NCBI RefSeq assembly: GCF_963664135.1
Contig: NZ_OY760905.1
Coordinates: forward strand, 2,010,736 to 2,074,735
Length of the DNA stretch: 64,000 nucleotides
Direction: 5' to 3'
From: an uncultured Acetobacterium sp.
GTDB taxonomy: Bacteria > Bacillota > Clostridia > Eubacteriales > Eubacteriaceae
This document shows positions 11,718 to 24,898 of this stretch, piece after piece (the stretch's first letter is position 1; each line of letters opens with the position of its first letter). The notes below the pieces were generated by a model that saw nothing but the letters and a program-made list of their open reading frames with translations, searched no databases and was not told where the DNA came from. Both the position numbers and the translations under genes were made by a program.

Positions 11718-11754
11718 TATATTCTCCTCTTTTTTCATTCGTATTGATTGCTTT

Positions 11755-11783
11755 ATTATATAAGAAAAAGTTTGATTTGTGAA
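11755..11783 (-). promoter_or_regulatory. Promoter of the leuCD operon
   Basis: On the minus strand TTCACA (11783-11778), a 17-base spacer and TATAAT (11760-11755), 38 bases upstream of the leuC start. No T-box or leader terminator was seen between promoter and gene. Confidence 0.6.
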
Positions 11784-11966
11784 ATGAATGTTATTGATCG
11801 CATCAATTCGGTTTAATGATTACTAATTTTTTGCAATGACCATTCCCATGGGATCTATGGATTCATACCGATTTTTTGATAAATCTGATTGCCTAATGAA
11901 ATCGCTAGTGCCTCACAGAGAGCAATTTGACTTATTAATGAACTTATCATGAAGCGATCAAAATAA

Positions 11967-12006
11967 AAAGCCTTAAAACCATTGCTATTGCTAGGTTCAA
12001 AGGCTT
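11967..12006 (-). terminator. Displaced original terminator of lysC
   Basis: AAGCCTTAAAACC pairs with AGGTTCAAAGGCTT; on the minus strand the stem is followed by TTTTTATTTT. It aligns without gaps with the present lysC terminator at 24823-24872, and the lysC-like stop and codons lie just to its right. It is now 12.8 kb from lysC. Confidence 0.7.
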
Positions 12007-12010
12007 GATG

Positions 12011-12036
12011 AAAACTACATATCGAACTTTTTATGA
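12011..12036. repeat. Left attachment core (attL), remnant of lysC 3' end
   Basis: On the minus strand it reads codons for IHKKFDM then TAG. It matches 24873-24898 with 3 mismatches in 26 bases, including the 13-base run AAAACTACATATC and the 8-base run TTTTTATG. To its right all similarity to lysC stops, so the crossover lies in or beside this segment. Confidence 0.72.
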
Positions 12037-12134
12037 ATCAATAAATTCAACTTTCATAATTTCATGCACATCATATTGTATTCATGAGTTATGCAAAGCA
12101 CAATATATGTTTTATGTGTTTTATTTACACTCCG

Positions 12135-12160
12135 CTTTAAGGGGCAAAAAAGGGGGCAAA
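12135..12160 (+). repeat. Left arm-type repeat
   Basis: A 26-base direct repeat, one mismatch from 24783-24808. Its core GGGGCAAAAAAGGGGGCAAA is itself two tandem G4-5CAAA units. It lies about 100 bases inside the left core and is probably an integrase arm-binding site. Confidence 0.65.
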
Positions 12161-12268
12161 AATCATTGAATACTATACATATCTTATTGATGATTATCAC
12201 CGCTTTCGACTCCATCGCTTAAAACAATATGGAGATAAAAGCAAAACTGTTATCTAACTCACTTTCCT

Positions 12269-12360
12269 CTGTCACCTGTCACCGCCTGTCACTAATGGCT
12301 TAACAAAGGCGTTTTGAGGGTGACAGCAAATTTTTCTGTTTTTTCATTTTCCTGTCACCC
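12269..12360. repeat. CTGTCACC iteron cluster, left
   Basis: CTGTCAC occurs at 12269, 12276 and 12286 and again at 12352, with an inverted GGGTGACAG at 12318-12326. That is five copies in 92 bases. The same motif clusters at 23398-23570. They may be binding sites for the element's primase-helicase at a replication origin, or for a regulator. Confidence 0.6.
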
Positions 12361-12362
12361 AA

Positions 12363-12387
12363 CAAAAAAGAAGCCATTACTGGCTCC
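12363..12387 (-). terminator. Terminator of the satellite structural operon
   Basis: On the minus strand GAGCC-AGTAAT-GGCTTC is followed by TTTTTT, directly after the stop of the head-closure gene. Confidence 0.55.
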
Positions 12388-12728
12388 TATATACTCGGAT
12401 CTTTATTTGTCCCTGCATCAGCATAAATCTGTATATCCTGTTTGTATCCTTCAAAAGTATCAACCCGTTTGATATTATAAAACTTATCCCGGTATTTGAT
12501 AACATTGGAATTGCTGATGTCACTTCTCCAATTGACAACAAATAGCATTTCTTCTTTTGCCTGCACCTGCATCGCTGCATAATGTTCACTGGCTGACAAC
12601 TGCCTAACATATGCCCACAGTTTATCTGTGTGGATCGGCGCCCAGGAATATTTTGGCGTTCCCCCTGGTTTACTTATAAGTGTTGGTGCTAAAATCTCTA
12701 TTTTTTTATCTTTTATTCTTTTCTTCAT
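12387..12728 (-). CDS. Phage head closure / head-tail adaptor protein (SPP1 gp16-like)
   Basis: 113 residues with the pattern of the Phage_H_T_join family (PF05521): a basic start (MKKRIKDKKIEILAP), W-A-x-I/V-x-P core (YSWAPIHTDKLWAYVRQLS), an EMLFVVNWRSDI strand and a YRDKFYNIKRVDTFEGYKQDI strand. It closes the portal and gives the surface that a tail docks on. I start at ATG 12728 behind AAAGGA; ATG 12758 and GTG-like codons upstream would include that site. It is the last gene of the structural operon, downstream of TerL rather than of the capsid gene, as is usual in phages. An interface to helper tails would be its expected role. Confidence 0.75.
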   Translation of the reverse strand: MKKRIKDKKIEILAPTLISKPGGTPKYSWAPIHTDKLWAYVRQLSASEHYAAMQVQAKEEMLFVVNWRSDISNSNVIKYRDKFYNIKRVDTFEGYKQDIQIYADAGTNKDPSI

Positions 12729-12857
12729 CATTAATCCTTTCATGTGAAAACGTCCCATGCTCTTAAACTCTTTAGCCGGTATTAAAGCACCACCACTCTT
12801 TTAAAAACGGTTTAAAAGGGTGCTACGTCGCTTGTTTCGTTCATTAAAATTATTTAA

Positions 12858-14513
12858 TTAAACCGCTTCCCTAAATTCCTGATAATGATCACATAAGCCA
12901 ACATAGGCATCAAGCAAGCTGGCCGTGCCGTCTATCTTCATTTTCTGGCCTTGGGCTTTCGCTGGGACGATGTTTTCATTTCTATCAATCGTTACGCCGG
13001 TATTGCTTAGACACCATTTTAAAATGGGGTTATTCTGGTAGTTGATCTTTTTAGCCGCCAAATCTGCCCCTAAGCGCTGCATAGGTAGGCTTAATGTTTG
13101 TGCGCCTTGTCTACAGGCCACCATGTTAAAGCCTTGGGCTTTCATTTCATCCACCCAATAACGGGCTGACCAGGCATCATAATAAATCCATGACGGGCTG
13201 ATCCCGTGGATCTGCACCAAATCCAAAAACCATGCGGTCACATCTGAGTAATTAATTGAGTTTCCTTCACACAAGCGCAATAGGCCACGCTCTGCCCACT
13301 TATCATAGGGGATTTTATCGGTCTGCACCCGTTCATTAAATGTTTCCTTTGGGAGCCAAAACATTTGCGTCACAAATCGCTGTTCTGTCTGTGGATCCAT
13401 CATCAAGGCCGTGGCCGCTGTCAAATCTCCGCATTTCGCCAAATCGGCACCACCAATAAAATAGGATCCCCTGAACCGCTCCAAATCAAAGGCACTTTCA
13501 TTATTTAACTGATCCCAGGTTAACCAGGCGTTATAGGCGTTACTCTTGACATTGAAGTCCTTACAGAGTAACCCGGCTAAATCAGATGGGTTATTTTCTG
13601 CCCGTTTTACTTTAGTCTCCAGATCGTCCAATTTCTTAATGGACAAAAGACCGGGATTCGCTTTAGGCCACATAATCGGGTCTTTGTATTCGTCCCGGGT
13701 GTCCAGTTCGTAAATGATGGGTAAAAAGGTTTCATCAGCAAAAGTACCATCAACAATTCCACAGGCATAGGAATAGATATCATCAAAGATATTCTCTCTA
13801 ACGGTTCCGCTTGTTGTAACCATCAACATTAACGGTTGTCGCCTGGCACTCATGGACTGCTTCATAACCTCGTAAACGTTCCGGTCTTTTATGCTGTGCA
13901 ATTCATCAATCATGCAAAGGTGAGTGTTTAGTCCGTCTAGGCTGTTGGCGTTTTTCCCCAATGGCTCAAATCGTGATAGTGTGGGATCAAAGTAAAGGTC
14001 TGTTTTTCTTTTCCGGATAAACTTTGATAGATCCGGGGACTGCTTCACCATGTTATGAGTTTCATCAAAGATAATCTTTGCCTGATCCTTTTTACTGGCA
14101 CAAGAAAAGATTTCGGCTCCTGGCTCATTGTCTGCAATCATCATATATAGGCCAATCCCGGCGGCCATGGTGCTTTTCCCGTTTTTACGTGCCACCATGA
14201 ATAAAGATTCCCTGTACTGCCTGTACCCCGTCAAATCGTCTATGAAGCCGAACAAGGACATAATATAAGCCTTTTGGAATAACTCCAACTTAACCGGTTT
14301 CCCTGCCCATTCGCCCTTTGAGTGTCTGCAAAACTGCTCAATAAAATCAATTGGTTTATTTCCCCGGTTAATATCAAAGTGATAACCGGGCCGGGGACGC
14401 TCCAGCGTGGCCACAATCTTCTTGTATTGCTTCTCAACCCTTTGGGACACAACCGCCGCCCCTGTCTGGATCTGTTCCCAATAACTTAAAATGTAGTTTT
14501 CTTTAGCGTTCAT
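12858..14513 (-). CDS. Terminase large subunit (TerL)
   Basis: 551 residues of the Terminase_1 family (PF03354), the DNA-packaging motor. The ATPase domain has a Walker A-like ARKNGKST (about 109-116) and Walker B MIDELH (about 201-206). The C-terminal RNase H-like nuclease begins with GGADLAKCGDLTA. The ATG at 14513 overlaps the end of terS, which suggests translational coupling; an in-frame start at 14537-14540 is possible. The length is full for the family and the catalytic residues are present, so the element can probably cut and package its own genome. Confidence 0.92.
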   Translation of the reverse strand: MNAKENYILSYWEQIQTGAAVVSQRVEKQYKKIVATLERPRPGYHFDINRGNKPIDFIEQFCRHSKGEWAGKPVKLELFQKAYIMSLFGFIDDLTGYRQYRESLFMVARKNGKSTMAAGIGLYMMIADNEPGAEIFSCASKKDQAKIIFDETHNMVKQSPDLSKFIRKRKTDLYFDPTLSRFEPLGKNANSLDGLNTHLCMIDELHSIKDRNVYEVMKQSMSARRQPLMLMVTTSGTVRENIFDDIYSYACGIVDGTFADETFLPIIYELDTRDEYKDPIMWPKANPGLLSIKKLDDLETKVKRAENNPSDLAGLLCKDFNVKSNAYNAWLTWDQLNNESAFDLERFRGSYFIGGADLAKCGDLTAATALMMDPQTEQRFVTQMFWLPKETFNERVQTDKIPYDKWAERGLLRLCEGNSINYSDVTAWFLDLVQIHGISPSWIYYDAWSARYWVDEMKAQGFNMVACRQGAQTLSLPMQRLGADLAAKKINYQNNPILKWCLSNTGVTIDRNENIVPAKAQGQKMKIDGTASLLDAYVGLCDHYQEFREAV

Positions 14514-14853
14514 CTTTAATAAAATCAAGGAGTGCATCACCCTTGGTCTCTATAGGGCCTTTGGGCAATAGATCCGTTAACTGCTTATATAATAAGCTGT
14601 ACCGCTGAACAGTTGTATTATAGGCTTTAAGTGCCGGTGATTCTCTCATAAATTCCTGGGCGCCCTGCTTGAATAATTCAACCGGCCCGCATTCTTTTAC
14701 CTGGTCTTTTAGCTCATCCAGGGTCTCCCCCATGAAAAGTATTTCTTTAACCAGTTTTTCGGCAATCTGCTTTTTATCCTCTGGCACCTGCTTCAATAGC
14801 TTGTTAATTTGCCGCTTGTTTTTTTGAATCTCTCTATCTTTGTCTATGTCCAT
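14503..14853 (-). CDS. Terminase small subunit (TerS)
   Basis: 116 residues. The stretch LFKQGAQEFMRESPALKAYNTTVQRYSLLYKQLTDLLP matches the pattern of small terminases of clostridial HK97-type phages (central oligomerisation helices). It recognises the packaging site and hands DNA to TerL, which follows with an 11-base overlap. Start ATG 14853 (MDIDKDREI) lies 7 bases after AGGTGGTG; two GTG codons just upstream are less likely. In satellites the element's own TerS is what redirects packaging to satellite DNA. Confidence 0.82.
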   Translation of the reverse strand: MDIDKDREIQKNKRQINKLLKQVPEDKKQIAEKLVKEILFMGETLDELKDQVKECGPVELFKQGAQEFMRESPALKAYNTTVQRYSLLYKQLTDLLPKGPIETKGDALLDFIKDER

Positions 14854-15282
14854 TTTCTTCACCACCTAAGTTTGTCTTGCTGCTTCAACCCTGCCTTTAT
14901 ACAAAAATTCAATGGAGGGGAATTCTAAGGTACCCTACTCGATGTTCAAATATATCCTTAATTTCTTCACATGGGGGGGGGAAACAGCGTTTTTGATGCC
15001 TTATTGCCTAATATTTCTTTTCAAAATAAATGTTACTTATCTGTAATTGTGTAACTTCTGCCCGTTGTCCTTTTCGCCTGTAAATTGCTGGCTTTCAAAG
15101 CTACACACCTACAAAATGTTCTGTTTTTTCATTATGTCGCTTTATTGTCGATTTTTGACCATTTCGATCCATTTTCCACAAAGGTCTTGTTGTCTTAGCT
15201 ATCTAAATAATCGCTATTTAATGCGGTTTCAAAGGCCTTTGTCTACGTTTTTCATGTTTCCACTTTTCATTGTGTAACATTC
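14854..15282. other. Non-coding region before terS, candidate cos/packaging site
   Basis: A 429-base gap in an otherwise tightly packed operon. No supported ORF on either strand. It contains a run of nine G (14973-14981), a direct repeat ATTGTGTAAC at 15046-15055 and 15269-15278, and an imperfect GTTAC/GTAAC inverted repeat at about 15032-15055. In HK97-like cos phages the cos site lies beside terS and the HNH gene, so this gap is the natural candidate. This is inferred from position only. Confidence 0.45.
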
Positions 15283-15840
15283 TTAATAAAGCTTGAAGCC
15301 TTTGAGCTTGTCATTGATTATATCCTGGGTTACACCGATATATAACAGGGTCACATCAATCGAAGAATGGTTAAAAATCATCTTTAATGTGACCACATCT
15401 TTTGTCTGCTGGTAATAATGATAGCCCATTGTCTTTCTTAAACTATGCGTCCCAAAACTTCCTTGCAATCCAATATCCTTAGCTGCGGTTGACAAGATGA
15501 TATAAGCTCTTTGCCTGGTTATCGGTTTATTGTAACCCTTCTGACTTTTGAACATAAACTCATTATCGTTAAGATCATTGTAATCAATGTATTCATTAGC
15601 AGCTTTTTTTAAGATGGGATTGATCTGTAACTTAGTCTGCTTGTTTGTCTTCTTCTCTCTAAAATAAAAAAAGTCTCGGTCTCTGAAATCTTTAACCTTT
15701 AAGCTCAATACATCTGATATACGATACCCGGAATAAAACCCGGTTAAGGCAAGGATGTAATCTCTTTCGTTGCGCTCTTTAAGGTATTCAATAAAATTGA
15801 TTATGTCATTGGTGTCTCTGATCGGATCTACGCTATTCAT
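15283..15840 (-). CDS. Catalytic-domain-only tyrosine recombinase inside the packaging module
   Basis: 185 residues, just the catalytic half of a phage integrase. Seen: Arg40 (SGYRISD), the His132-x-x-Arg135 box (HSLRKTMGYH), His158 (NHSS) and nucleophile Tyr167 (TLLYIG). There is no arm-binding or core-binding domain. Start ATG 15840 overlaps the HNH stop; a GTG at 15861 contains the ribosome site (GAAGGGGAAC) and is rejected. Such short recombinases occur near terS/HNH genes in clostridial prophages, where their role is unclear. It is distinct from the true integrase at 23613. Confidence 0.78.
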   Translation of the reverse strand: MNSVDPIRDTNDIINFIEYLKERNERDYILALTGFYSGYRISDVLSLKVKDFRDRDFFYFREKKTNKQTKLQINPILKKAANEYIDYNDLNDNEFMFKSQKGYNKPITRQRAYIILSTAAKDIGLQGSFGTHSLRKTMGYHYYQQTKDVVTLKMIFNHSSIDVTLLYIGVTQDIINDKLKGFKLY

Positions 15841-16126
15841 ATTTAATGAGTTCCCCTTCACTGTTAAAGCATAATCCCTCTTTGCATTCCTTTCCGGCTA
15901 AATGATGTCGGGTGTGACACTCCTGACATAAGCACTCTAAGTTGTCCCAACTCATTGTAATTTCTGGATCGTGGATGTTTTGAGGTGTAATGTATTTGAC
16001 ATGGTGGCATATACGGGCCGGTTTACCACATCTTTCGCAAATATAGTTTTTGCTTTTCATAAATGCTTTTGATACTTTGCGCCATCGTGGATTATTATAA
16101 AAACTTTCCGCATATGCCTTAGCCAT
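15833..16126 (-). CDS. HNH endonuclease (packaging-associated)
   Basis: 97 residues. Two zinc-binding pairs (CERC and CLCQEC) flank the HNH core (ICHHVKYITPQNIHDPEITMSWDNLECL, ending TRHH). It starts at ATG 16126 (MAKAYAESFYNN) behind AAGGAG. HNH proteins next to terminase genes are required for cos cleavage in HK97-type phages and are standard in capsid-forming satellites. It overlaps the downstream recombinase by 8 bases. Confidence 0.85.
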   Translation of the reverse strand: MAKAYAESFYNNPRWRKVSKAFMKSKNYICERCGKPARICHHVKYITPQNIHDPEITMSWDNLECLCQECHTRHHLAGKECKEGLCFNSEGELIKYE

Positions 16127-16139
16127 GTCTTTTTTCTCC

Positions 16140-16415
16140 TTAGTTTGAAACGGTTGCCAATGCTGATAAGCCTTTGAGCAAATTGTCAATCACTCGCTGG
16201 ATCTTCTCAACGTCTGCCTGCTCCGGGTTGTACCATAGCAGCAATAAAAATTTACTCGCCGTCTTTGCCAGTGGCTCGGACGCTTGTTGTGCTGCGGTCA
16301 TTCCCGTTGTCAATTCGATATAGCCTGGGATGGCATCCAACAACGGGGATATAATCCCGTCGTTGTCGGTGCCGTCAAGCCTGAGATATTCTCTCGCTTC
16401 TTCAACTGTGATCAT
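16140..16415 (-). CDS. gp6-like head-tail connector protein
   Basis: 91 residues, matching by pattern HK97 gp6/Phage_connect_1 (PF05135): MITVEEAREYLRLDGTDNDGIISPLLDAIPGYIELTTG, the usual start of these proteins, followed by a helical C-terminus. It forms a ring under the portal. It lies 4 bases after the major capsid gene, the normal place in HK97-type phages. Confidence 0.82.
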   Translation of the reverse strand: MITVEEAREYLRLDGTDNDGIISPLLDAIPGYIELTTGMTAAQQASEPLAKTASKFLLLLWYNPEQADVEKIQRVIDNLLKGLSALATVSN

Positions 16416-16419
16416 TTAT

Positions 16420-17664
16420 TTATACGGCTGCTTCGTACAGCTTAACAAACGCTTCGGTTACAATTGGTTTAGTGTCCGCAACTGCAATGGCTCGATAATC
16501 AATCAAGCCTGATTTAAAGCTGGATTCCCTGGAGACTTCAATAACAATCCCTTCGGGGATGTTGTAGCCCATGTAAGACCAGTTCCCCAGGTAAATGTCA
16601 CCGTCTACGATATTATCATCAATAACCACTTCACGGCCTAGAATGTAACCAATGCTTTCCTGTTTCGGATCCGCAATAAAGATAGGCCGCTTGTTATCAT
16701 CTACGATGTTGTAAATATGAGTGTATAAGGTTGCGTTATTGCAAGCCCATTTTGCACCGGCGCTATAACCCCGTTTCAGTTTGGCCATTAAAGAAACAAA
16801 GTTTGTATAGGTTGGGATCCCATCTTTTATATATTCAACAGCATTGGCATCTTTTACCCAGGTAATTGTTTCAATCCCGGTACCCTCGGTGGTTCCTGCA
16901 CCATTAACAATCGAATCAGCGATGGTTTCCATCACACAGGCGGTTAATTCATCGGTGATATAGGACTCAAAAGCACTGATGGTCATTTTTTTAGCGGCTG
17001 CACTGATTGAGAATACTTTGAGGATCTCATAACCATTAAAGGCCACTGATGCAATGTTTTCTTTTTCAGTCTCAACGGTCGTTCCTTCTACGTGCCATGC
17101 AGCTTTACTGGTAGGCGTTCCCACTGGCACACTGATCTTTGTGGGGATGTTGAAGCTTCTACACTGTGGAAGCAATCCGCCCATGGTTCGGGCTTTACTA
17201 ATAACTTCATTGAGTGTTTGGGTAGGTAATACGGCTACCGAATTGGTGACGGTGTTAAAGGCATCCGCTCTTTTTTCTGCATCCACAATGGTCTGCGCCC
17301 GGGTAAATGCCGCGGTCTCAAAGGTTGTAAGCTTTTGGCCTAATAACGTTTTAAAGAACGCTGTCCGATATTCTGGACTAGCAAACACATCACCCTCCAG
17401 GGCTTCCTGGGATGCTCTGGTTTCAAATGATCCTCCAGTAATGGGGTTAAATTGTCCACGGTCTTCTGGTTCGGTTGTTTTTTGTTTGTCCACGATATTC
17501 TCCTTAGCTTGTTTTAATCCGGTAATTTCAATATTTAGGCTCATTACGTCCGCTTCTGGGTCGGTGTCGATGGTTCCTTTAATCTGGGCCGCTCTGGTTT
17601 CGATTTCCTGCAAACTGGCATTACGGTAATGATTAAAGCTTTCTGCTACTGTATTAAATTTCAT
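16420..17664 (-). CDS. HK97-family major capsid protein
   Basis: 414 residues. An N-terminal helical delta (scaffold) domain of about 95-100 residues is followed by the HK97 fold proper, with VSVPVGT-like P-domain strands (KISVPVGTPTSKAAWHVEG), the A-domain (SISAAAKKMTISAFESYITDEL) and a C-terminal part with DYRAIAVADTKPIVTEAFVKL. The delta domain is expected to be cut off by the protease encoded upstream. The ribosome site AAAGGAG is 12 bases from ATG. The protein makes the procapsid, so the element does not depend on a helper for its head. Confidence 0.92.
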   Translation of the reverse strand: MKFNTVAESFNHYRNASLQEIETRAAQIKGTIDTDPEADVMSLNIEITGLKQAKENIVDKQKTTEPEDRGQFNPITGGSFETRASQEALEGDVFASPEYRTAFFKTLLGQKLTTFETAAFTRAQTIVDAEKRADAFNTVTNSVAVLPTQTLNEVISKARTMGGLLPQCRSFNIPTKISVPVGTPTSKAAWHVEGTTVETEKENIASVAFNGYEILKVFSISAAAKKMTISAFESYITDELTACVMETIADSIVNGAGTTEGTGIETITWVKDANAVEYIKDGIPTYTNFVSLMAKLKRGYSAGAKWACNNATLYTHIYNIVDDNKRPIFIADPKQESIGYILGREVVIDDNIVDGDIYLGNWSYMGYNIPEGIVIEVSRESSFKSGLIDYRAIAVADTKPIVTEAFVKLYEAAV

Positions 17665-17665
17665 G

Positions 17666-17827
17666 TTATTTTACTGCTCCTTTTCGTTTTGTTATCGTGA
17701 TTTTCACTTGCTCTTTTGATGCTCTGCCATCTATAAGACCTGGCTCATCATACGCTAAATACTTAACTACAAATCCATGTTCACTACATAATTTTTCAAT
17801 TTCTTTTATTAACTCCAATGGCATCAT
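17666..17827 (-). CDS. Small protein between protease and capsid genes, 53 aa
   Basis: The frame encodes 53 residues: MMPLELIKEIEKLCSEHGFV at the start and a very basic end (VKITITKRKGAVK). The ATG directly abuts the stop of the protease gene and a GAGGGAG ribosome site lies in the protease end. Its own stop is one base before the capsid ATG. The tight fit in the operon supports a real gene. The N-terminal half looks like an amphipathic helix. Function not recognised; position suggests a head assembly or decoration role. Confidence 0.7.
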   Translation of the reverse strand: MMPLELIKEIEKLCSEHGFVVKYLAYDEPGLIDGRASKEQVKITITKRKGAVK

Positions 17828-18412
17828 TTATTCTCCCTCGAAAAGTATTCTATTCGCTGCAATCATTACCGCTTTTTTAATTTCATCATTCCCATGTGCT
17901 TCAATAGCTGCCCTGGCTTCAACGCTTGTTTGAGGATAGGCCGGATAAGGAACTACCGAACACTCATAGATTTTTGAAATTTTCGAGATTTCCCTGGTAT
18001 TGGTTGCTTTATCATACTTGTCGCCCCCAGGTGGCACTGTGAAGGCAAAGGACATACCCGTCAAAAGATCATTCTTTACTGCCGTGTGAACGCTTCGGGC
18101 TTCTTCAGTGTTCGGTAACTCTGCAATCATTTCAAGCCCTGCCGGGGTTGTTTTAAATTGCAACGTCTTTGGGGTTCTGGCTAAAGGTATGCGGTTGGTG
18201 TCATGGTTGTAAAGTAACCGGGTGTCGGTTAAATCACAATCATCCAATGCACCCCTTTTAATGATTTCGGTGTAAGATCCTGCCGGATCGTTAATAATTG
18301 TCGGTGTATCAAATACCACTGGTACACCTTTTATAATAAGGCCTTGTTCTTCCCCTGCCGGGTCGGCGGCTCTTATTTCTGCTTTAATGTCTGCTATTCT
18401 TGTTTCTTTCAT
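17828..18412 (-). CDS. HK97-type prohead protease
   Basis: 194 residues of the U35 family (PF04586). The catalytic His is His70 in LLYNHDT and the Ser is Ser121 in TGMSFAF. The preceding strand GVPVVFDTPT...YTEIIKRGALDD is typical. The protease cleaves the capsid delta domain and then itself during head maturation. ATGA overlap with the portal gene upstream. Full length for the family. Confidence 0.9.
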   Translation of the reverse strand: MKETRIADIKAEIRAADPAGEEQGLIIKGVPVVFDTPTIINDPAGSYTEIIKRGALDDCDLTDTRLLYNHDTNRIPLARTPKTLQFKTTPAGLEMIAELPNTEEARSVHTAVKNDLLTGMSFAFTVPPGGDKYDKATNTREISKISKIYECSVVPYPAYPQTSVEARAAIEAHGNDEIKKAVMIAANRILFEGE

Positions 18413-19608
18413 TTTGTGATTGTCTCCTTTTCGTTTAACTGATATTGATCCGCTTTATCGGCATTAACATAATTCAATGACTGTAACCGCTGATCGCCGC
18501 CCTCGACTGATGGAAGGTTTAGAATTTCCAGGGCTTGGTTGATTGACAATAAGCCCATCGGCATCAACTCTTTAATGAGATTAACCTTGGTGGCGTTGCT
18601 GCTGAATTGTAACCGGCCACTCTCAAACATGATGCTATTTCCAAATGATTGCTCACGGTCATTAAAAAGCTTCCGAGTAAACTCCAGGCTTAACTGTACC
18701 GCTATCGGCTCCAGCGTGGATTCATAGAATGCTGAGAATTGATCTTCATTGTAACTAGAATTAATAATGGTTTCCGATACTCCCAGATAATCATAGATCT
18801 TTGTTTTGATCGCTTTAATCTGTGCATCATCAATATTAACCGGCTTACTGTCTATCGGGGTATATTCCATGGTGGTGTCTAACATGGCAATACCGCCATT
18901 ATTACTGATCCCCATGTAATCATTGATAAATTCTTCTTTTTTCTCTTTCAGTTTTGGCCCGGCCAATTGTCCGGTAAATTGTAGGATCCCCCGGATATTT
19001 GCACTTGATTGGATGCTGTTTACCAGTCCTTCATTTTGAGTGTGTGCCAATTCTAACGCCGGCATGATTGCCCCGTTGGGATCTCCCAGTAAGTCATTAT
19101 CATTAAAATGTCGTCTTAAGTGGATGATATCCGCATAAGGAAAAAGATAATCTTTCCCGTTGCTAAAAAGCATTTTGCAATAGATCGCCCCGGTACTGTC
19201 TGATAGAAAATCAATGTGCTGTGGTCTCATGGGGTAGATCCCTAATAACTTCCCCCGGTCTGATTTCTGCAAATAAGCAAAAGCGTTATTGTATAAAAAC
19301 AGGTGGGTGGTCATTTTATACCACAGGTCATAGGCGGCCATGTACGGGTTGGGCTGGATCTGTAAAAGCCGGTTGATTTTGCAATCACCATCTACTTTGT
19401 TATGGTCACCATATGTAATCACATGGGATCCTTTGAGCTTGGCGGCGTTTCTGGATATTGCGTCAATGGCTGCCCGGTAAATATCATTTGAATATGCGTC
19501 ACCACTCCAGGGCGAAAAACCCCCAATGTCGGTAATAATTTCTGTTCTTGTTTCGGTTTCCGGCGGTTTCGGTTTCTTGAAAAAGTCTAATAAGCTAATT
19601 TTGTTCAC
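18409..19608 (-). CDS. HK97-type phage portal protein
   Basis: 399 residues (PF04860). Hallmarks are the N-terminal VYRAAIDAISRNAAKL-like helix (here IYRAAIDAISRNAAKL), P-N-P-Y-M (QPNPYMAAYDLWYKM), and the C-terminal SINQALEILNLPSVEGGDQ that follows the clip and crown. It forms the 12-fold entry channel for DNA. Its GTG start at 19608 lies only one base after GGAG, which is unusually close; see findings. It heads the structural operon, upstream of the protease. Confidence 0.92.
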   Translation of the reverse strand: MNKISLLDFFKKPKPPETETRTEIITDIGGFSPWSGDAYSNDIYRAAIDAISRNAAKLKGSHVITYGDHNKVDGDCKINRLLQIQPNPYMAAYDLWYKMTTHLFLYNNAFAYLQKSDRGKLLGIYPMRPQHIDFLSDSTGAIYCKMLFSNGKDYLFPYADIIHLRRHFNDNDLLGDPNGAIMPALELAHTQNEGLVNSIQSSANIRGILQFTGQLAGPKLKEKKEEFINDYMGISNNGGIAMLDTTMEYTPIDSKPVNIDDAQIKAIKTKIYDYLGVSETIINSSYNEDQFSAFYESTLEPIAVQLSLEFTRKLFNDREQSFGNSIMFESGRLQFSSNATKVNLIKELMPMGLLSINQALEILNLPSVEGGDQRLQSLNYVNADKADQYQLNEKETITK

Positions 19609-19652
19609 GCTCCTTTCTTGAATAAGGCGCCCGGTTAAAGGTGCCTGCTGTT

Positions 19653-19856
19653 TTAGTAAGTTCGCACCGGCGGCAAATCAGATAAACTTTGTTCTACATA
19701 ATCTTCAATGCTGACAATCTGATTTATGTTTATAAAAATATCTTTCTTTAACGCCCTGTCATGCACCTTATAGAAATTCGGATCCCCGGCCCATCTGGTT
19801 AAATCAACGTCGTTTAAGGTCTTGCCATTAATCAATGTTATTGTTTTATTTTTCAT
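19653..19856 (-). CDS. Small satellite protein, 67 aa
   Basis: Not recognised. 67 residues, soluble, with a short beta-rich start (KTITLINGKTLNDVDLTRW) and an acidic middle. It is coupled to the gene upstream (start overlaps its stop by one base) and lies 44 bases before the portal gene. It sits where satellites often carry capsid-size, packaging-switch or anti-helper proteins, but nothing in the sequence shows which. Confidence 0.65.
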   Translation of the reverse strand: MKNKTITLINGKTLNDVDLTRWAGDPNFYKVHDRALKKDIFININQIVSIEDYVEQSLSDLPPVRTY

Positions 19857-20203
19857 TATTCCTGTTCCTCGGCTTTTCTAATCACCTCTTCCAGGTTTAT
19901 TTTTCTCCCGGCTCCCTTTAATTCTTTTCTTGCTTCAATAACAAGTTTTTCGATTTTTTCCAATAAACCACTGACAGCATAAATATAATCAAACACGATA
20001 CTAGCTTTTGTTGCATGTTCAAAGTATCCGCATTGCAATTTCCAAAGATTTTCTTTTGTGAGATCCGTCAAATCAAAATACCCTTCCGATAAATCCTGAT
20101 TGATACATAACGCCTTTTCAATCTTCACGGTTGCATTCATTAATTCACCTTCGATTACTGCCAATAAATCACTTGCCACTGCCGTCTTTGTTGCAATTTC
20201 CAT
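19856..20203 (-). CDS. Hypothetical satellite protein, 115 aa
   Basis: Not recognised. 115 residues, mostly helical by composition, with the central stretch LWKLQCGYFEHATKASIVFDYIYAVSGLLEKIEKLVIEARKEL followed by a basic/acidic tail. No membrane segment. It begins directly after the primase-helicase stop and overlaps the next small gene by one base, so it is translated with the replication module. Confidence 0.7.
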   Translation of the reverse strand: MEIATKTAVASDLLAVIEGELMNATVKIEKALCINQDLSEGYFDLTDLTKENLWKLQCGYFEHATKASIVFDYIYAVSGLLEKIEKLVIEARKELKGAGRKINLEEVIRKAEEQE

Positions 20204-22291
20204 TTAATTTTCTCCTTCATTTTTTATTCGAATGTCTTTGTAGTACCTGGTTGTTTTTGTTCTTACTTGCTTGATTCCAAATGATTTGAGCTGTTTCCCG
20301 AGCGCTGATCCTGACATTGGCTTATTAATTCCATTTTGACCACAGAAGCAATCATAAGCTGAAATCACAGTGCCCACAGGCAAATCATTTCCTGGCGATA
20401 CTTCTATTCTTTCGCTATAGAATGCATAAGCTGAGTCACTATCCGCTTTAAATGTTTCCATTTCCTGAAGCGCTGCTTTCGAAATTGTCAATTTCCAGTT
20501 ATTCACTTTCAATCTTTTTAGCCCCTGAAGCGCCCACCAGAAAAACAAATCCAGCTCTTCTTCAATTATTTTTCTGGTTACAATAGGATCTCTTGCGTGA
20601 GTGGTGATCCCATTTTGAAATTCTTCTTCTGTCCCAAATGTGTTATTAAACGGAATAATGCAAAATCTTCTGTAGAATCCATCTGATTTATCCGAAGCCG
20701 ATGGCAATCTGTTTAAATTGAAATAATGGGTCATATTAAAGTTCATAACTTTTATGTCTTTGTTTTTACGGTTAACCCTGACGGCTTCACCACATATCAT
20801 TGACTTAAACGCCGCGCCAACTTTTACGCCGGACAAATCATCATCCATTACAATATTTGCAATCTTACCTTCTGCTGCTGAGATATCAAAATCTTTGGAA
20901 AAATCACTTAAGCCGATTGAACAGATATTATCCCTTGATCCTATCAACGCCTGCATAATTTCCATTAAAGCGGACTTTCCGTTTTTCCCATTACCTAAGA
21001 AAATAAATGCCTGCTGCACTTCCTGGGCTCTTGGTGAAATCAATAACCCCATGGCTTCCTGGAGGGTCAATTGGCTCTCTAAATCAAGTATTTCATCTAA
21101 AAAACGTTTCAATCTTGAATTCTTAAATTCCGGATCGCTGACCTGCCTAAAATTCGCCTGAAATTGGCCTGTAAGGCGATATTCATTGCTATAGGGCATT
21201 AGTGTCTCTGTCTCCAAATTAACTGTGCCATTCAAGCAATTAGCGAACTTTTTTTCTTCATAGTTTCTTTTTTCTTCACTTGCCACCATTAACATGATTT
21301 CGGCAAACTCTTTCGCTTTTCTCACGGTGCGATCTGTGTCGCTTTGGCAACTGGCAAAATAAATTTTATGAAGACCATGGGCGCCAACGTGTTCATAAAA
21401 ACCCTTTTCATGGTTGTAGAAAAAAGTTAAGTTCCCACGGCTAAAGCAATGCTTATCTTTCATTACATACCTGGCTAATGAAAATGGAATAACCTTTCCG
21501 TCTGATGTAAAATAGTTAAGTGTCTGGATTTTTTCGCAAACGCTCTTTGCGATTCTTTCAACTTCATTTCGATCCAACGGCGGTTGGCACTTAGAATCAT
21601 TTAAAGTTTGCAAAAATGCGCTAATAATGGTATGATCATTAATATGAGTCTTACCAAAGACCATCATCCCATCACGGAACAAGCTATCATTTCGTTTGCC
21701 TGAAGGATAAGCTTCTCCACTAAACCCGTCATTGTCCCATGATTGGGTTTTTTCTTTTTTTTGTGACTTATCCCGCTCTACAAAAATATCAAATAATTCA
21801 CCAGGCATTTCAGTAATTGGAAGATCCACCATAACCTGGTAACTGCCAATGGTTCCATTTTTCTTTTTTTTCTGGCTGCCAGGGGCAACAATCACACCAC
21901 CATCCGTCCGTACATCAATGCCTGGAAAATAATCGGCCCGATTTCTTAACCCTTTACGGTATTTGAAATATATATGCATCCCGCCATTTGGGGTTTCAGT
22001 CATTAACGTTTCGGGCATTCCTGGCCACAGTTCATTAAACGTCTTTACTCCATCCACGCCATCAACATGATTAACATCTAAATCCACTACCATAACACCA
22101 GACTTTTCACCGGTAAGCAAAGCAGCTCCAGTTGCATCGGTGAGTCTTACCAATTCTTCAAAATTGTTAACCCAACATTTCGGATCGCTCCACTTAACCA
22201 CCGGAAAACCAGCATTGTTATTTATTGGCACCACCGGAAATAAATCATACTTCTTAATCAGCTCAAATTTTTCAATTGATATTTTACTCAC
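20204..22291 (-). CDS. Primase-polymerase / SF3 helicase replication protein (P4 type)
   Basis: 695 residues. The N-terminal primase-polymerase domain carries VVDLDVNH (Asp70, Asp72) and the GGxHIYF motif (NGGMHIYFKY), then FPGIDVRTDGGVIVAPGS. The C-terminal superfamily-3 helicase has Walker A GNGKNGKS (about 430-440), Walker B-like NIVMDDDLS, and a winged-helix end. Satellites such as P4 and the PICIs use this protein to start their own replication at iteron-bearing origins. The annotated GTG start at 22291 almost touches the AAAGGGG site. Confidence 0.9.
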   Translation of the reverse strand: MSKISIEKFELIKKYDLFPVVPINNNAGFPVVKWSDPKCWVNNFEELVRLTDATGAALLTGEKSGVMVVDLDVNHVDGVDGVKTFNELWPGMPETLMTETPNGGMHIYFKYRKGLRNRADYFPGIDVRTDGGVIVAPGSQKKKKNGTIGSYQVMVDLPITEMPGELFDIFVERDKSQKKEKTQSWDNDGFSGEAYPSGKRNDSLFRDGMMVFGKTHINDHTIISAFLQTLNDSKCQPPLDRNEVERIAKSVCEKIQTLNYFTSDGKVIPFSLARYVMKDKHCFSRGNLTFFYNHEKGFYEHVGAHGLHKIYFASCQSDTDRTVRKAKEFAEIMLMVASEEKRNYEEKKFANCLNGTVNLETETLMPYSNEYRLTGQFQANFRQVSDPEFKNSRLKRFLDEILDLESQLTLQEAMGLLISPRAQEVQQAFIFLGNGKNGKSALMEIMQALIGSRDNICSIGLSDFSKDFDISAAEGKIANIVMDDDLSGVKVGAAFKSMICGEAVRVNRKNKDIKVMNFNMTHYFNLNRLPSASDKSDGFYRRFCIIPFNNTFGTEEEFQNGITTHARDPIVTRKIIEEELDLFFWWALQGLKRLKVNNWKLTISKAALQEMETFKADSDSAYAFYSERIEVSPGNDLPVGTVISAYDCFCGQNGINKPMSGSALGKQLKSFGIKQVRTKTTRYYKDIRIKNEGEN

Positions 22292-22350
22292 CCCTTTTCT
22301 TTCTTCAACAATCTCACCTCTTTACTTTTGATACCAGGGCTATAAAAAAG

Positions 22351-22560
22351 CTAAACAGAAATTGTCTTATTTCCTGTGTTCTCCTGTAACCATTGGGTTA
22401 ACCCATCACGGTTAAAGAACACTCTACCACCCAGCCGCAAAACTGGAAAACCTTCTTCTTCTCTGGCTAACCGATAAAGTTGAGCCTTTGGTAATCCTGA
22501 AAAATTGATTGCTTCATGGATATTTAGCATTAAACCAAATTTGTTCTGTTGTTCATTCAC
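22351..22560 (-). CDS. AlpA/excisionase-like DNA-binding protein
   Basis: 69 residues with one MerR-like winged helix: LNIHEAINFSGLPKAQLYRLAREEEGFPVLRLGGRVFFNRDGLTQWLQE. This is the AlpA/helix_turn_helix_17 pattern of satellite regulators and excisionases. The start is the GTG at 22560, set by a perfect AAAGGAGGTGAT ribosome site 7 bases upstream; the longer ATG start at 22599 would contain that site. It is the first gene of the minus-strand operon, divergent from the repressor, and probably activates excision or early genes. Confidence 0.82.
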   Translation of the reverse strand: MNEQQNKFGLMLNIHEAINFSGLPKAQLYRLAREEEGFPVLRLGGRVFFNRDGLTQWLQENTGNKTISV

Positions 22561-22591
22561 TTTATCACCTCCTTTGATGATCGCTTTTTTA

Positions 22592-22627
22592 TTGATCAAT
22601 ATATTCCTGTAAACATTTTGTTGATCA
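22592..22627. repeat. TTGATCA motifs over the early promoter
   Basis: ATTGATCAAT is a perfect 10-base palindrome at 22591-22600 and TTGATCA recurs at 22621-22627, touching the -10 of the AlpA-like promoter. They are possible binding sites for AlpA or the repressor. Confidence 0.4.
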
Positions 22628-22628
22628 T

Positions 22629-22657
22629 ATTAAATCACATTATACTTTTCATGTCAA
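22629..22657 (-). promoter_or_regulatory. Early promoter of the satellite (AlpA operon)
   Basis: On the minus strand a consensus TTGACA (22657-22652), 17-base spacer and TTTAAT (22634-22629), about 70 bases before the GTG start of the AlpA-like gene. A TATAAT also lies between but at poor spacing. Confidence 0.6.
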
Positions 22658-22686
22658 CTATTTGTTTATCTAGTTCATTTTAATTC

Positions 22687-22741
22687 TTATATCGTTGATT
22701 TGTTCCCAGTGTTTTAATTATTTTTTATATCGTTGATTTGT
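22687..22741. promoter_or_regulatory. Two 17-base direct repeats, putative repressor operators
   Basis: TTATATCGTTGATTTGT occurs identically at 22687-22703 and 22725-22741, 38 bases apart, in the switch region between the divergent repressor and AlpA-like genes. The second copy contains the -35 of the repressor promoter, which suggests autoregulation. Confidence 0.65.
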
Positions 22742-22761
22742 ATATGATGGCGTGATATGAT
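22733..22761 (+). promoter_or_regulatory. Repressor promoter
   Basis: TTGATT (22733-22738), 17 bases, TATGAT (22756-22761). The start codon is 30 bases further, behind AAAAAGGAG. Confidence 0.6.
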
Positions 22762-22790
22762 ATATAAAAATTTAAAAAGGAGCTAACATA

Positions 22791-23366
22791 ATGTCTGATT
22801 TTAAAAATCGCTTGCGAAATTTGATTAAAGAAACCAAAAAAACTCAAAAAGACATCGCTAAAGAAATGACTATTGCTTCAAAAATTGAAATTTCGCCTCA
22901 AACATTATCTTATTATGCGAATGGTAGAGAACCAAATTATGACACTCTAATTGCAATTGCAAAATACTTTGATGTATCAGTTGATTATCTTACTGGATAC
23001 AGCGATGCAAAAAAACCAGAAAATACTTTAACCATCCAAGAGCTTGGTTTGACAGATGTTTCGATAGACATAATTAAACGCTTAAACAAAATAACAGCTA
23101 GTGATCCTCCTGATCTTGAGGAAAATTCACGTATGTTTATAGATATTTTCAATGACTTACTTGAAAGCAGATATTTCATTTCCTTTTTGCAAGCTATCAA
23201 GGCTTTAACTAATCCAAATGAGGGTGATTTGAGTTGGACCCCATGGACGGATGGATGTGTAAACCCCTTCGATTTTGAACTAATGATGAAGCAAGCAGGA
23301 TGGGAAAAAGTATTAAAAGAATCTGTGGAAGGGATTTTAGAAGACGTATACCGTAACGGACGTTAA
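22791..23366 (+). CDS. XRE-family master repressor of the satellite
   Basis: 191 residues. The Cro/CI helix-turn-helix fills residues 5-65 (TQKDIAKEM...SPQTLSYYANGREPNYDTLIAIAKYFDVSVDYLTG). The C-terminal 125 residues are not a LexA-type peptidase: no Ser-Lys dyad pattern is seen, so RecA-driven cleavage is unlikely. In PICIs this position is taken by the Stl-type repressor, which is lifted by binding a helper-phage protein. The same mode is possible here by analogy. Divergent from the AlpA-like operon. Confidence 0.85.
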   Translation: MSDFKNRLRNLIKETKKTQKDIAKEMTIASKIEISPQTLSYYANGREPNYDTLIAIAKYFDVSVDYLTGYSDAKKPENTLTIQELGLTDVSIDIIKRLNKITASDPPDLEENSRMFIDIFNDLLESRYFISFLQAIKALTNPNEGDLSWTPWTDGCVNPFDFELMMKQAGWEKVLKESVEGILEDVYRNGR

Positions 23367-23397
23367 AGCAAACATCAAATAACAACTAACAAAATAC

Positions 23398-23570
23398 CTG
23401 TCACCAATAAAAATATATTACAATCACAAAAAACCCACTAACTATACCAGTTAGGGGGATTTTCTGTTTTATAGGGTGGTGACAGGAAGATGACAGCTAA
23501 AAAACCTCCTGTCACCTAAAAAAATGGCTTTAACTAAGTATTCTTTATATATTTGATGACAGATGACAGG
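23398..23570. repeat. CTGTCAC iteron cluster, right
   Basis: CTGTCACC at 23398-23405 and 23509-23516, with inverted TGACAG copies at 23480-23485, 23491-23496, 23557-23562 and 23565-23570: six in 173 bases. Same motif as the left cluster at 12269-12360. Located between repressor and integrase genes. Confidence 0.6.
23428..23464 (+). terminator. Terminator of the repressor gene
   Basis: CCACTAACT pairs with AGTTAGGGG (one mismatch), with A and T tracts extending the stem, then CTGTTTT. It lies 62 bases after the repressor stop. Confidence 0.55.
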
Positions 23571-23612
23571 AAATAATAGAATTTAATAAAAAATAGAAAG
23601 GATTTATGTATT

Positions 23613-24770
23613 ATGTCAAGACCAGTATTTAAAAAGAAGATTAAAAACGGTAGAGTGTATTTCTTTTATCGGCTCCGGCACACACAATTAAGAAAGCCGC
23701 TTGATATGTATGCTAAGACCGAAACCGAACTGAAAGCAAAGATAAAAAGCAAAGAATATGAGCTGGATCGGGGCGTGACTTCAGATAAAGCGTTCTTTGG
23801 AGACTATCTTAAGAAGTGGCTTGATGCTGTTCACATTAATGGTAAAAAAGAAGGGACTGTTCATAATTACTATGTATGCTATGACAATCACATTAAAGGC
23901 TCCCCTATTGAAAAGATCCGCCTGAAGGACTTAAGCGCCCTAGATCTCCAGGACTATTATCAGAGCATTATTGATAAAAAAGGCATCAACGTTGTTAAAT
24001 CAATTCATAAAATGGTCTGTCCTTGCTTGAGATATGCCTTTGCCAATCAGAAAATATTAATGGACTTCACCAGAGCAATTAAGCTACCGGCTCCAAAGGA
24101 AAAAGATGAGGATGAGGTTTCAAGGGTATTAACACGGGATGAACAAGAGAAGTTTATCAAGGCTATCAAGGGCGCAACTTATGAAGCATTATTCTTGACA
24201 GCATTAAACACTGGGTTACGGATCGGGGAACTTCTTGCATTAACTTGGGATGATCTTAGTTTTGAGAGCAAAGAAATATCCGTTACTAAACAAATGACTT
24301 ACACAAAGGATCGGGCAACAAAGAAGTATACCAATAAAATAACCACACCAAAAACAAAGGCTGGGACACGTGTTGTCCCCGTACCCGAGTTTTTAATACC
24401 ACGACTGAAGGAACTGAGGGTGAAGGAGCTGGAAAAGAAAATGCGATTGCAAAATAAATGTGCTGACCTTAACCTGGTCTTTTCTGCAAAGCTTGGTGGT
24501 TATCTGGCCTTCAGTTCTGTAAGAACTTCGCTTGATACCATAATTAATGAAAATAAAATCGAACATTTCAAAATTCATAGTTTGCGCCATACCTACGCAA
24601 CCCGCCTATTTGAGTTAGGAGAGCAACCTAAAACCGTCCAAGCGCTGCTAGGTCATTCCGACATCAATATGACAATGAATGTTTATACTCATGTTTTAAA
24701 AGACATCAGCGCCATCAGCGCTGGAAAAATGGATACCTTACACAATGAATTATTATGCAAGGCGGAATAA
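23613..24770 (+). CDS. Tyrosine integrase of the satellite
   Basis: 385 residues. There is an N-terminal AP2-like arm-binding domain (VYFFYRLRHTQLRKPLDMYAKTETELKAKIK), a SAM-like core-binding domain (about 60-160), and a catalytic domain with Arg203 (TGLRIGE), His322-Arg325 (HSLRH), His348 (LGHSD) and nucleophile Tyr358. This full-length, Tn916/phage-type integrase ends about 100 bases before the right attachment core, the usual int-att layout. The G-rich repeat at 24783-24808 is its probable arm site. It inserts the element in the end of lysC. Confidence 0.93.
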   Translation: MSRPVFKKKIKNGRVYFFYRLRHTQLRKPLDMYAKTETELKAKIKSKEYELDRGVTSDKAFFGDYLKKWLDAVHINGKKEGTVHNYYVCYDNHIKGSPIEKIRLKDLSALDLQDYYQSIIDKKGINVVKSIHKMVCPCLRYAFANQKILMDFTRAIKLPAPKEKDEDEVSRVLTRDEQEKFIKAIKGATYEALFLTALNTGLRIGELLALTWDDLSFESKEISVTKQMTYTKDRATKKYTNKITTPKTKAGTRVVPVPEFLIPRLKELRVKELEKKMRLQNKCADLNLVFSAKLGGYLAFSSVRTSLDTIINENKIEHFKIHSLRHTYATRLFELGEQPKTVQALLGHSDINMTMNVYTHVLKDISAISAGKMDTLHNELLCKAE

Positions 24771-24782
24771 ATAATAAAAAAT

Positions 24783-24808
24783 CTTTAGGGGGCAAAAAAG
24801 GGGGCAAA
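24783..24808 (+). repeat. Right arm-type repeat
   Basis: One mismatch from 12135-12160 and in the same orientation, with core GGGGCAAAAAAGGGGGCAAA. It lies 65 bases inside the right attachment core, just after int. Confidence 0.65.
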
Positions 24809-24826
24809 CTTTTTACAGGCATAAAT

Positions 24827-24870
24827 AAAAAGCTCTGAAACCGTTGTTATCAAACGATCTCAGAGCTTTT
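24827..24870. terminator. Element-borne terminator now serving lysC (and int)
   Basis: AAAAGCTCTGA pairs perfectly with TCAGAGCTTTT. On the minus strand it lies 6 bases after the lysC stop and ends in TTTTTATTTAT. Over 24823-24885 it aligns gap-free with 11961-12023 (43 of 63 bases equal by eye). Confidence 0.8.
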
Positions 24871-24872
24871 AA

Positions 24873-24898
24873 AAAACTACATATCAAATTTTTTATGG
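24873..24898. repeat. Right attachment core (attR), inside the lysC 3' end
   Basis: Covers the last codons of lysC (IHKKFDM-stop) and pairs with the remnant at 12011-12036. The intact gene uses this copy, so the element supplies the end of the reading frame. Confidence 0.72.

Follow-up and report, generated by a model that had tools for sequence, protein, structure and literature searches.

A probable capsid-forming phage satellite at the end of lysC in an uncultured Acetobacterium

Within the window analysed here, a 64,000-nucleotide stretch of contig NZ_OY760905.1 from an uncultured Acetobacterium sp., an island of 12.86 kb (positions 12011–24900) flanked by leuC (10431–11738) and lysC (24877–26085, minus strand) carries an integrase, a replicase and a set of phage head and packaging genes, with no recognisable tail gene. 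The question raised by this locus is whether these genes are the remains of a tailed prophage or belong to an element that would form its own capsids and take its tails from another phage, in the manner of the capsid-forming phage-inducible chromosomal islands (cf-PICIs). The gene content of the island, the order of its genes, their grouping in trees and their recent exchange between species favour the second answer: with a probability of about 0.85, the island is a mobile, capsid-forming phage satellite that borrows the tails of a helper. The names leuC, lysC and that of the host gene hom used below are presumed from the look of the proteins.

The island and its genes

The island is bounded by a 28-base direct repeat (12011–12038 and 24873–24900; 25 of 28 positions, 89%, at a spacing of 12,862 bases) that forms part of a longer, imperfect duplication of the lysC 3′ end with its terminator. 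The right attachment-site core corresponds to the last codons and stop of lysC, and the left core lies distal to the integrase gene. A repeat search also revealed, near both island ends, two copies of a 26-base sequence (12135–12160 and 24783–24808, 96% identical), which are candidate integrase arm sites. In genome G016, in which the island's capsid found no match, lysC and leuC are 13 bp apart, compared with 13 kb in the window. In G061, from the same species as the window, the end of lysC runs unbroken into the terminator with a 93.75% match to the window's left flank; this shows only the lysC end to be island-free, since only 54 more bases follow before the contig stops, and these match neither of the flanks searched. 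In G002 (contig C17, L084) the lysC 3′ end is occupied by an island of a different kind, about 12.8 kb long, with an integrase 79% identical to that of the window and nothing matching the window's capsid. As the islands of the window, of G002 and of G003 (L013, discussed below) all lie at this position, the lysC end is a recurrent target. The island thus has the integrase and attachment sites of a cf-PICI, and the 12.86 kb between its cores is near the 14 kb expected of one. Rfam, searched at gathering scores over 11700–25200, gave no match.

Sixteen open reading frames (ORFs) were chosen, overlapping frames being left out, and scanned against Pfam (E to 0.1) and PHROGs (E to 0.01), with NCBIfam models as a further source of family matches; all lie on the minus strand, the integrase and the repressor excepted. 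Like a cf-PICI, the island has its own capsid protein, head protease, portal and connectors: a portal of 399 residues (18409–19608; PF04860, 1.8e-57; TIGR01537 above cut-off), an S78 prohead protease of 194 residues (17828–18412; PF04586, 3.1e-27), an HK97-type major capsid protein of 414 residues (16420–17664; PF05065, 2.5e-33), a gp6-like head–tail adaptor of 91 residues (16140–16415; phrog_40, 1.6e-08) and a head-closure or head-completion protein of 123 residues (12387–12758; PF05521, 1.5e-13; TIGR01563 above cut-off). It likewise has its own packaging genes, namely an HNH endonuclease of 118 residues (15833–16189; PF01844, 1e-06) and the small (TerS, 120 residues, 14503–14865) and large (TerL, 560 residues, 12858–14540; PF03354, 4.6e-37; PF20441, 1.8e-33) terminase subunits. 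A predicted capsid structure was not used, its mean confidence score (predicted local distance difference test) being 58.

The remaining assigned genes point to integration, control and replication. The integrase, a tyrosine recombinase of 385 residues (23613–24770, plus strand; PF00589, 1.5e-28), has a SAM-like N-terminus (PF14659), and a PrimPol/D5 primase–helicase of the P4 family (695 residues, 20204–22291; PF09250, PF08706, PF03288) has the features of a Pri-Rep type replicase, with a Prim-Pol match at 3.7e-16 and the P4-family C-terminal model TIGR01613 above its cut-off. A possible AlpA/Stl-type switch consists of a helix-turn-helix (HTH) repressor of 191 residues (22791–23366, plus strand; HTH_3, 3.9e-11), in which no S24 peptidase domain was matched, and a small Xis- or AlpA-like protein of 82 residues (22351–22599) that falls slightly below the Pfam cut-offs (HTH_17, 26.4 bits against 27; AlpA, PF05930, at an E value of only 0.05) and matches phrog_66, 'excisionase and transcriptional regulator', at 1.5e-05. 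When six island proteins were compared with the defence genes of PADLOC, this 82-residue protein gave the single match, a weak one to an HTH protein. The gap between the repressor and switch genes contains two operator-like 24-base repeats (92%, 22680–22741), and a promoter scan of the same gap gave 11 sites against 7.3 expected.

Between the HNH and TerS genes lies a second tyrosine recombinase of 192 residues, comprising the catalytic domain only (15283–15861; PF00589, 7.5e-21; phrog_216, 2.4e-58). Its residues R47, K71, H139, R142, H165 and Y174, presumably the catalytic set of tyrosine recombinases, are invariant in all seven aligned sequences, the window's included. Homologues also stand near HNH genes in the prophage of G010 (L119) and in two contigs of phage-like gene order (L048 and L049), so the gene may derive from phage packaging modules; many of the related satellites have no match to it, and in L018 its frame is interrupted. 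It may serve a circular or multimeric stage of the element, and resolution of multimers arising in replication would be a guess at its role. Three further ORFs, of 115 (19856–20203), 67 (19653–19856) and 53 residues (17666–17827), have no clear family; the first is kept in L016 (43%), and the last has matches only in the window and G003 copies.

A sequence-only reading of this locus had named the same integration, replication, head and packaging genes, and each of these is an open frame with family support from Pfam, PHROGs or NCBIfam. Its claim that every ORF was accounted for did not hold, as it missed the second recombinase and the three short ORFs; the cos-like motif ahead of terS, described below, had escaped it too. 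Three of its names need qualification. The repressor and HTH switch pair is present, the AlpA likeness of the smaller partner being weak; the gp6 connector lies above the NCBIfam cut-off of TIGR01560 and slightly below that of Pfam; and TerS is weakly matched at the family level, to phrog_2343 at 2e-4, besides phrog_1066 of 'unknown function'. The predicted fold of TerS had four matches under 0.001 in a viral library, none of them to a characterised protein, and annotated terminase small subunits followed at E values of 0.002 and above; against the PDB the fold found nothing under 0.001, and a sequence search of the PDB returned a single chance-level match. The name is supported by the position of the gene, by the likeness of its predicted fold to phage TerS models and by its conservation. 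The earlier statement that tail, lysis and late-regulator genes are absent was borne out, none of the 16 scanned ORFs matching such a family in Pfam or PHROGs, with three ORFs unassigned.

A family with a rearranged gene order

Relatives of the island were sought with its capsid in 61 genomes, with a capsid profile in 391 genomes sampling the class evenly, and by a scan of viral contigs. The first search matched 11 genomes, the window's own (G000, one contig) included, the near ones being G003 (99%), G014 (79%) and G030, where a contig end matches at 52% over residues 1–178. Six genomes matched the profile at 1e-40, of which four (G000, G014, G161 and G307) belong to the satellite group, and the contig scan yielded 35 loci, 13 of which are contigs of 11.5–14.9 kb with the gene order of the island. 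In G010, two equal-scoring capsid copies on contig C1, near 3583000 and 3989000 (about 406 kb apart), apparently represent a duplicated prophage.

Viral contigs, genome matches and full versions of five contigs together give 26 loci, including the window, whose capsids share at least 47% identity and whose genes follow the order portal–protease–capsid–adaptor–HNH–(recombinase)–TerS–TerL–closure as far as each locus extends. L094, L095, L096, L098 and L099 were read in this way after end-joining, and the halves of L056 lie at opposite contig ends; L024 stops ahead of TerL, and L015 and L026 end inside it. No TerS was matched in L034, L036 and L053, no adaptor in L029 and L056, and no closure protein in L015, L020, L022, L024, L026, L029 and L113, while L017 and L018 have the recombinase match before HNH rather than after it. 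The independent cases are fewer than 26, as some loci are near copies of one another (the window and L013; L019 and L114; L098 and L099). Among 20 comparison loci (phages, prophages and distant contigs), with capsids at 21–35% identity, all 18 with a capsid match show the ordinary order TerL–portal–capsid; L117 has no capsid match and L118 no match at all.

The grouping in trees agrees with the gene order. In the capsid tree the satellite-order rows all fall on one side of a branch (25 of 43 rows, support 95/94), as they do in the TerL tree (22 of 42 rows, 91/97), where support was higher (20 of 39 rows, 99/97) before L016 and L094 were both included. The trees are drawn from their midpoint, and to call the group a clade assumes a root among the phages. 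The TerL tree leaves out L014, L015, L024 and L026 (TerL broken, partial or missing), L117 (long branch) and L118 (no match), and the capsid tree leaves out L056 (partial), L117 and L118; partial contigs L023, L031, L035 and L040–L046 and the short genus loci L005–L012 entered neither the order count nor the trees, in which the prophage of G010 is represented by L119.

These results bear directly on the possibility that the island is a defective prophage that lost its tail, lysis and replication genes by deletion and is decaying in place. Such an origin would agree with the membership of its head genes in the same families as those of Firmicutes siphophages, with the lack of a visible helper in the genome and with the decay seen in two members of the group, L053 and L014. 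A simple deletion would nevertheless leave the order TerL–portal–capsid, whereas in the window and throughout its family the capsid module stands before the packaging module; one group in both trees shares the tail-less set, which lies between repeats at several sites, is for the most part under purifying selection and has moved recently. A deletion derivative, which should show the order of intact relatives together with gene loss, was rejected on gene order, tree grouping and mobility, and is very improbable. The case named beforehand as decisive against a satellite, the same genes inside a longer tailed prophage at this locus, was sought and not found.

Between the second recombinase and terS lie 417 bases that include a run of C followed about 50 bases on by a CCCCTCC box (14911–14981, minus strand), a putative cos site by motif comparison. 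The pattern, devised after these sequences had been viewed so that its count is descriptive, precedes terS in 15 of 23 testable loci (three of the 26 being untestable) and recurs elsewhere in those loci once on the same strand. Contig L096 terminates within the motif. By eye, similar boxes are seen in the phage-order loci L039 and L047–L049, as would be the case if the cos site were inherited.

A motif of this kind is relevant to a further alternative, that the genes encode a gene transfer agent or another head-based particle packaging host DNA instead of the island. In the PDB the capsid profile does match best to the capsid of a Rhodobacter gene transfer agent (E value 2.5e-05), but this match does not discriminate, since the capsid of an Escherichia coli cf-PICI likewise clusters there according to passages of PMC12846349. 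Self-packaging is indicated by the integrase, the replicase, TerS and the cos-like motif ahead of terS; as the island also moves between species and has no recognisable tail gene among the 16 scanned ORFs, this alternative is extremely improbable.

Exchange between species, selection and the helper

The closest copy of the island lies at the same lysC end in G003 (L013), with 97.1% DNA identity over 12016–22575 and no extra ORF within. The repressor stretch (22575–23431) has no DNA match there and is replaced by a different HTH repressor of 284 residues, as expected of an immunity change between otherwise 97% identical islands. Synonymous (dS) and nonsynonymous (dN) divergence were computed per gene between G000 and G003 and between G000 and G014. 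For the G003 pair, the host genes lysC and hom have a dS of 0.64 and 0.53, compared with 0.016 for the adaptor, 0.027 for the second recombinase, 0.028 for TerS, 0.033 for the portal, 0.071 for the primase, 0.111 for the capsid, 0.114 for the protease, 0.134 for TerL and 0.164 for the closure protein, so that these nine genes, from primase to closure, are about 3- to 40-fold below the host genes; the HNH gene and the 67-residue ORF show no synonymous change, and the 115-residue ORF has a dS of 0.045. This part of the island has therefore moved recently between the two Acetobacterium species. Homologous exchange between copies resident in both genomes is a possible route.

Constraint on the proteins is evident in the same comparison. 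dN/dS is 0.056 for the capsid, 0.059 for the protease, 0.062 for TerL, 0.065 for the portal and 0.094 for the closure protein (0.04–0.10 when the integrase is included), with higher values in the primase (0.18) and the 115-residue ORF (0.25); the adaptor and TerS show zero amino-acid change, and the changes in HNH are too few to judge. Towards G014, at a dS of 1.5–2.2 that makes the ratios rough, dN/dS is 0.11 for the capsid, 0.091 for the protease and 0.052 for the second recombinase; the remaining genes are saturated or unmatched, the integrase giving 0.29 at a dS of 3. That the whole head set is kept bears on the idea of an ordinary PICI- or P4-like satellite that travels mainly in helper heads and uses its capsid genes as an interference device. 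The PICI-type core of integrase, repressor and primase is present, as this idea requires, but the low ratios of portal, protease, capsid, TerL and closure protein and the unchanged adaptor and TerS speak against it, and it must be considered highly unlikely.

Relatives at other sites add to the picture of a mobile element. That of G014 (L053) spans 12.5 kb between 118-base repeats (86%) holding, by eye, an apparent tRNA 3′ end, and has a different integrase (27%), while that of G307 adjoins an apparent rpsI, also by eye, with 35-base repeats (94%) 13.4 kb apart; both lack recognisable tail genes and have their own bounding repeats. At L053 17083–17526 terS is missing or decayed, and this relative might depend on the TerS of a helper. 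The sequence-only reading had called the island an active satellite and proposed a search for it at other sites: the copy in G003 and these two relatives were found, the rearranged order and tree grouping that set the family apart from phages support the satellite, and purifying selection together with divergence lower than that of host genes argues for a working, mobile element over a decayed one.

The relatives were also examined for tail genes among 167 extra ORFs from 18 loci, of which 148 were scanned and 19, in L013 and L053, excluded as chromosomal flanks. The 25 most frequent of 164 PHROG and of 61 Pfam families include no tail tube, tape measure, baseplate, fibre, holin or lysin; they do include two HK97-gp10-like 'putative tail-component' matches, two of sigma-70 regions and five of ParA type. 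A PHROG scan of ten chosen ORFs of relatives identified neck or tail-completion proteins in L094 and L096, a sigma factor in L017 and an integrase in L094, with two ORFs of unknown function and four unmatched. The sigma-factor-like gene follows the closure gene (L017, 12422–13120; phrog_351, 7.1e-42) and is a possible late regulator.

Several observations weigh against an active satellite. The 115-, 67- and 53-residue ORFs are unassigned in Pfam and PHROGs; the family evidence rests in part on contigs that may be incomplete; and 8 of 23 loci lack the cos-like motif, which also turns up eight times elsewhere on the opposite strand. Two relatives are damaged, that of G014 having no recognisable terS and L014 a broken TerL. 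The integrase has a dS of 0.362 between G000 and G003, only 1.5–1.8 times below the host genes, so recent exchange was uneven and did not cover the whole island. Finally, no helper was seen in G000 by a search limited to four families and not extended to other phage types: neither a tape measure (PF10145) nor a distal tail protein (PF05709) was found, and the sole portal (PF04860) and TerL (PF03354) were those of the island itself.

With no resident helper found in G000, the helper would have to enter from elsewhere or belong to a different type. The island might also be a stranded satellite, its genes intact and itself immobile here for want of a helper. This variant, compatible with the preferred reading, is favoured by the four family searches without a matching helper prophage, but helpers may be infecting phages, and 7 of 19 genomes of the genus hold a PF10145 tape measure, G003 having two; it is rather unlikely, if a good deal less so than the alternatives above. 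The two tape-measure loci of G003 are L117, with only a distant match to the island (TerL, 24%), and L118, with none.

If the island is a capsid-forming satellite, it would be kept silent at lysC by the HTH repressor until a helper phage lifts repression, self-cleavage in the SOS response being less likely because no S24 peptidase was seen. The integrase and the small HTH/Xis protein would then excise a 12.9-kb circle, to be replicated by the PrimPol–D5 protein. The portal, protease and capsid genes would build a small HK97-type head, to be filled by HNH, TerS and TerL after a cut at the cos-like site ahead of terS and sealed by the adaptor and closure protein; a helper tail would be attached and the lysis genes of the helper would release the particle. 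As Acetobacterium grows in laboratory culture, particle formation could be tested.

Comparison with known systems

The cf-PICIs were reportedly described by Alqurainy et al. in 2023, and the term is applied to the island as a functional class that its gene content appears to fit. As described in passages of PMC10690885, they carry capsid, protease, portal, connectors, HNH, TerS and TerL and are widespread across Bacteria; passages of PMC11773190 place them in diverse taxa, those of PMC10803314 give an average of about 14 kb and name main hosts without Clostridia, and those of PMC11389934 distinguish three capsid radiations; the published capsid tree comprises about 900 cf-PICI capsids, the figure that PMC13230959 works with. 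Searches of the open library for such elements in Clostridia or Acetobacterium led to PMC11389934 and PMC13335696, whose relevant passages mention no clostridial case, and clostridial members may already be present in published lists of cf-PICIs. By these partial descriptions, and at the level of description rather than of sequence, the island and the cf-PICIs share integration and the same head and packaging set, and the tails of cf-PICIs are derived from helpers.

A 14.1-kb plasmid record of Lacticaseibacillus rhamnosus (L128, NZ_CP094953.1) is tail-less and cf-PICI-like by its annotation, but its genes stand in the usual phage order, in contrast to the rearranged order of the island, and a single long gene encodes both protease and capsid; the window's capsid finds no match in it at an E value of 1 or better, and the TerLs of the lactobacillar L128 and L130 fall outside the island's group. 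L128 has an integrase, and the plasmid record may represent a satellite in its excised form. The Firmicutes HK97-type siphophages (for example Clostridioides CD2301, Terrisporobacter TPDSL_ph2 and Caldibacillus CBP1) have homologous TerL, portal and capsid, the island TerL being 43–51% identical to the fifteen best-listed phage records, and several phages have HNH and TerS as well; they differ in the order TerL–portal–capsid and in the tail genes annotated downstream in L120, L121, L122, L124, L125 and L126, and the satellites group apart from them. The Streptomyces satellites MulchRoom and MiniFlayer resemble the island, by description only, in having their own capsid and packaging genes and depending on helpers; passages of PMC10690885 state that they lack significant homology to cf-PICIs, have direct terminal repeats and use virulent helpers.

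The satellite-plasmids known as cf-PISPs, reported in passages of PMC13230959 only from Vibrio and with an internal tyrosine recombinase, offer a further parallel. Their member TG54, from Vibrio crassostreae, is, in the part of that source describing it, capsid-forming and tail-less like the island, with a tyrosine recombinase between portal and adaptor. TG54 is episomal and has no integrase, whereas the island is integrated and has both an integrase and an internal recombinase; it thus differs from cf-PISPs, which are episomal, carry ParA/RepA and lack an integrase. ParA-like sequences do occur in six relatives of the island: a ParA motif in L020, L022 (at the contig end only), L094 and L095, a reading from the protein in L025 and L096, and Pfam support in five pooled members. 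The six group together in the TerL tree (support 94/92), and the window's integrase has no match in any of them. Terminal repeats in L094 (127 bases), L020 (102 bases, 99%) and L098 (99 bases) point to circles; an integrase-family recombinase of 279 residues in L094, and the lack of a ParA motif match in L098, count against a pure plasmid reading. The ParA-bearing relatives are candidate satellite-plasmids outside Vibrio, comparable to the cf-PISPs, and would have arisen from chromosomal satellites. There are about even odds that the island represents a capsid-forming lineage of Clostridia and their relatives apart from the lactobacillar one, which began when the capsid module moved ahead of the packaging module and which left the chromosome at least once as satellite-plasmids.

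On this interpretation, tail-stealing satellites would extend to acetogens and other clostridial-type hosts. The capsid-before-packaging order suggests a rule of thumb by which, in this family, satellites may be told from decayed prophages in raw sequence, and relatives at several sites and as ParA-bearing contigs provide a set for studying the change from chromosomal satellite to plasmid. With respect to the known capsid-forming satellites, the island is new in its gene order, its grouping, its host group and its internal recombinase.

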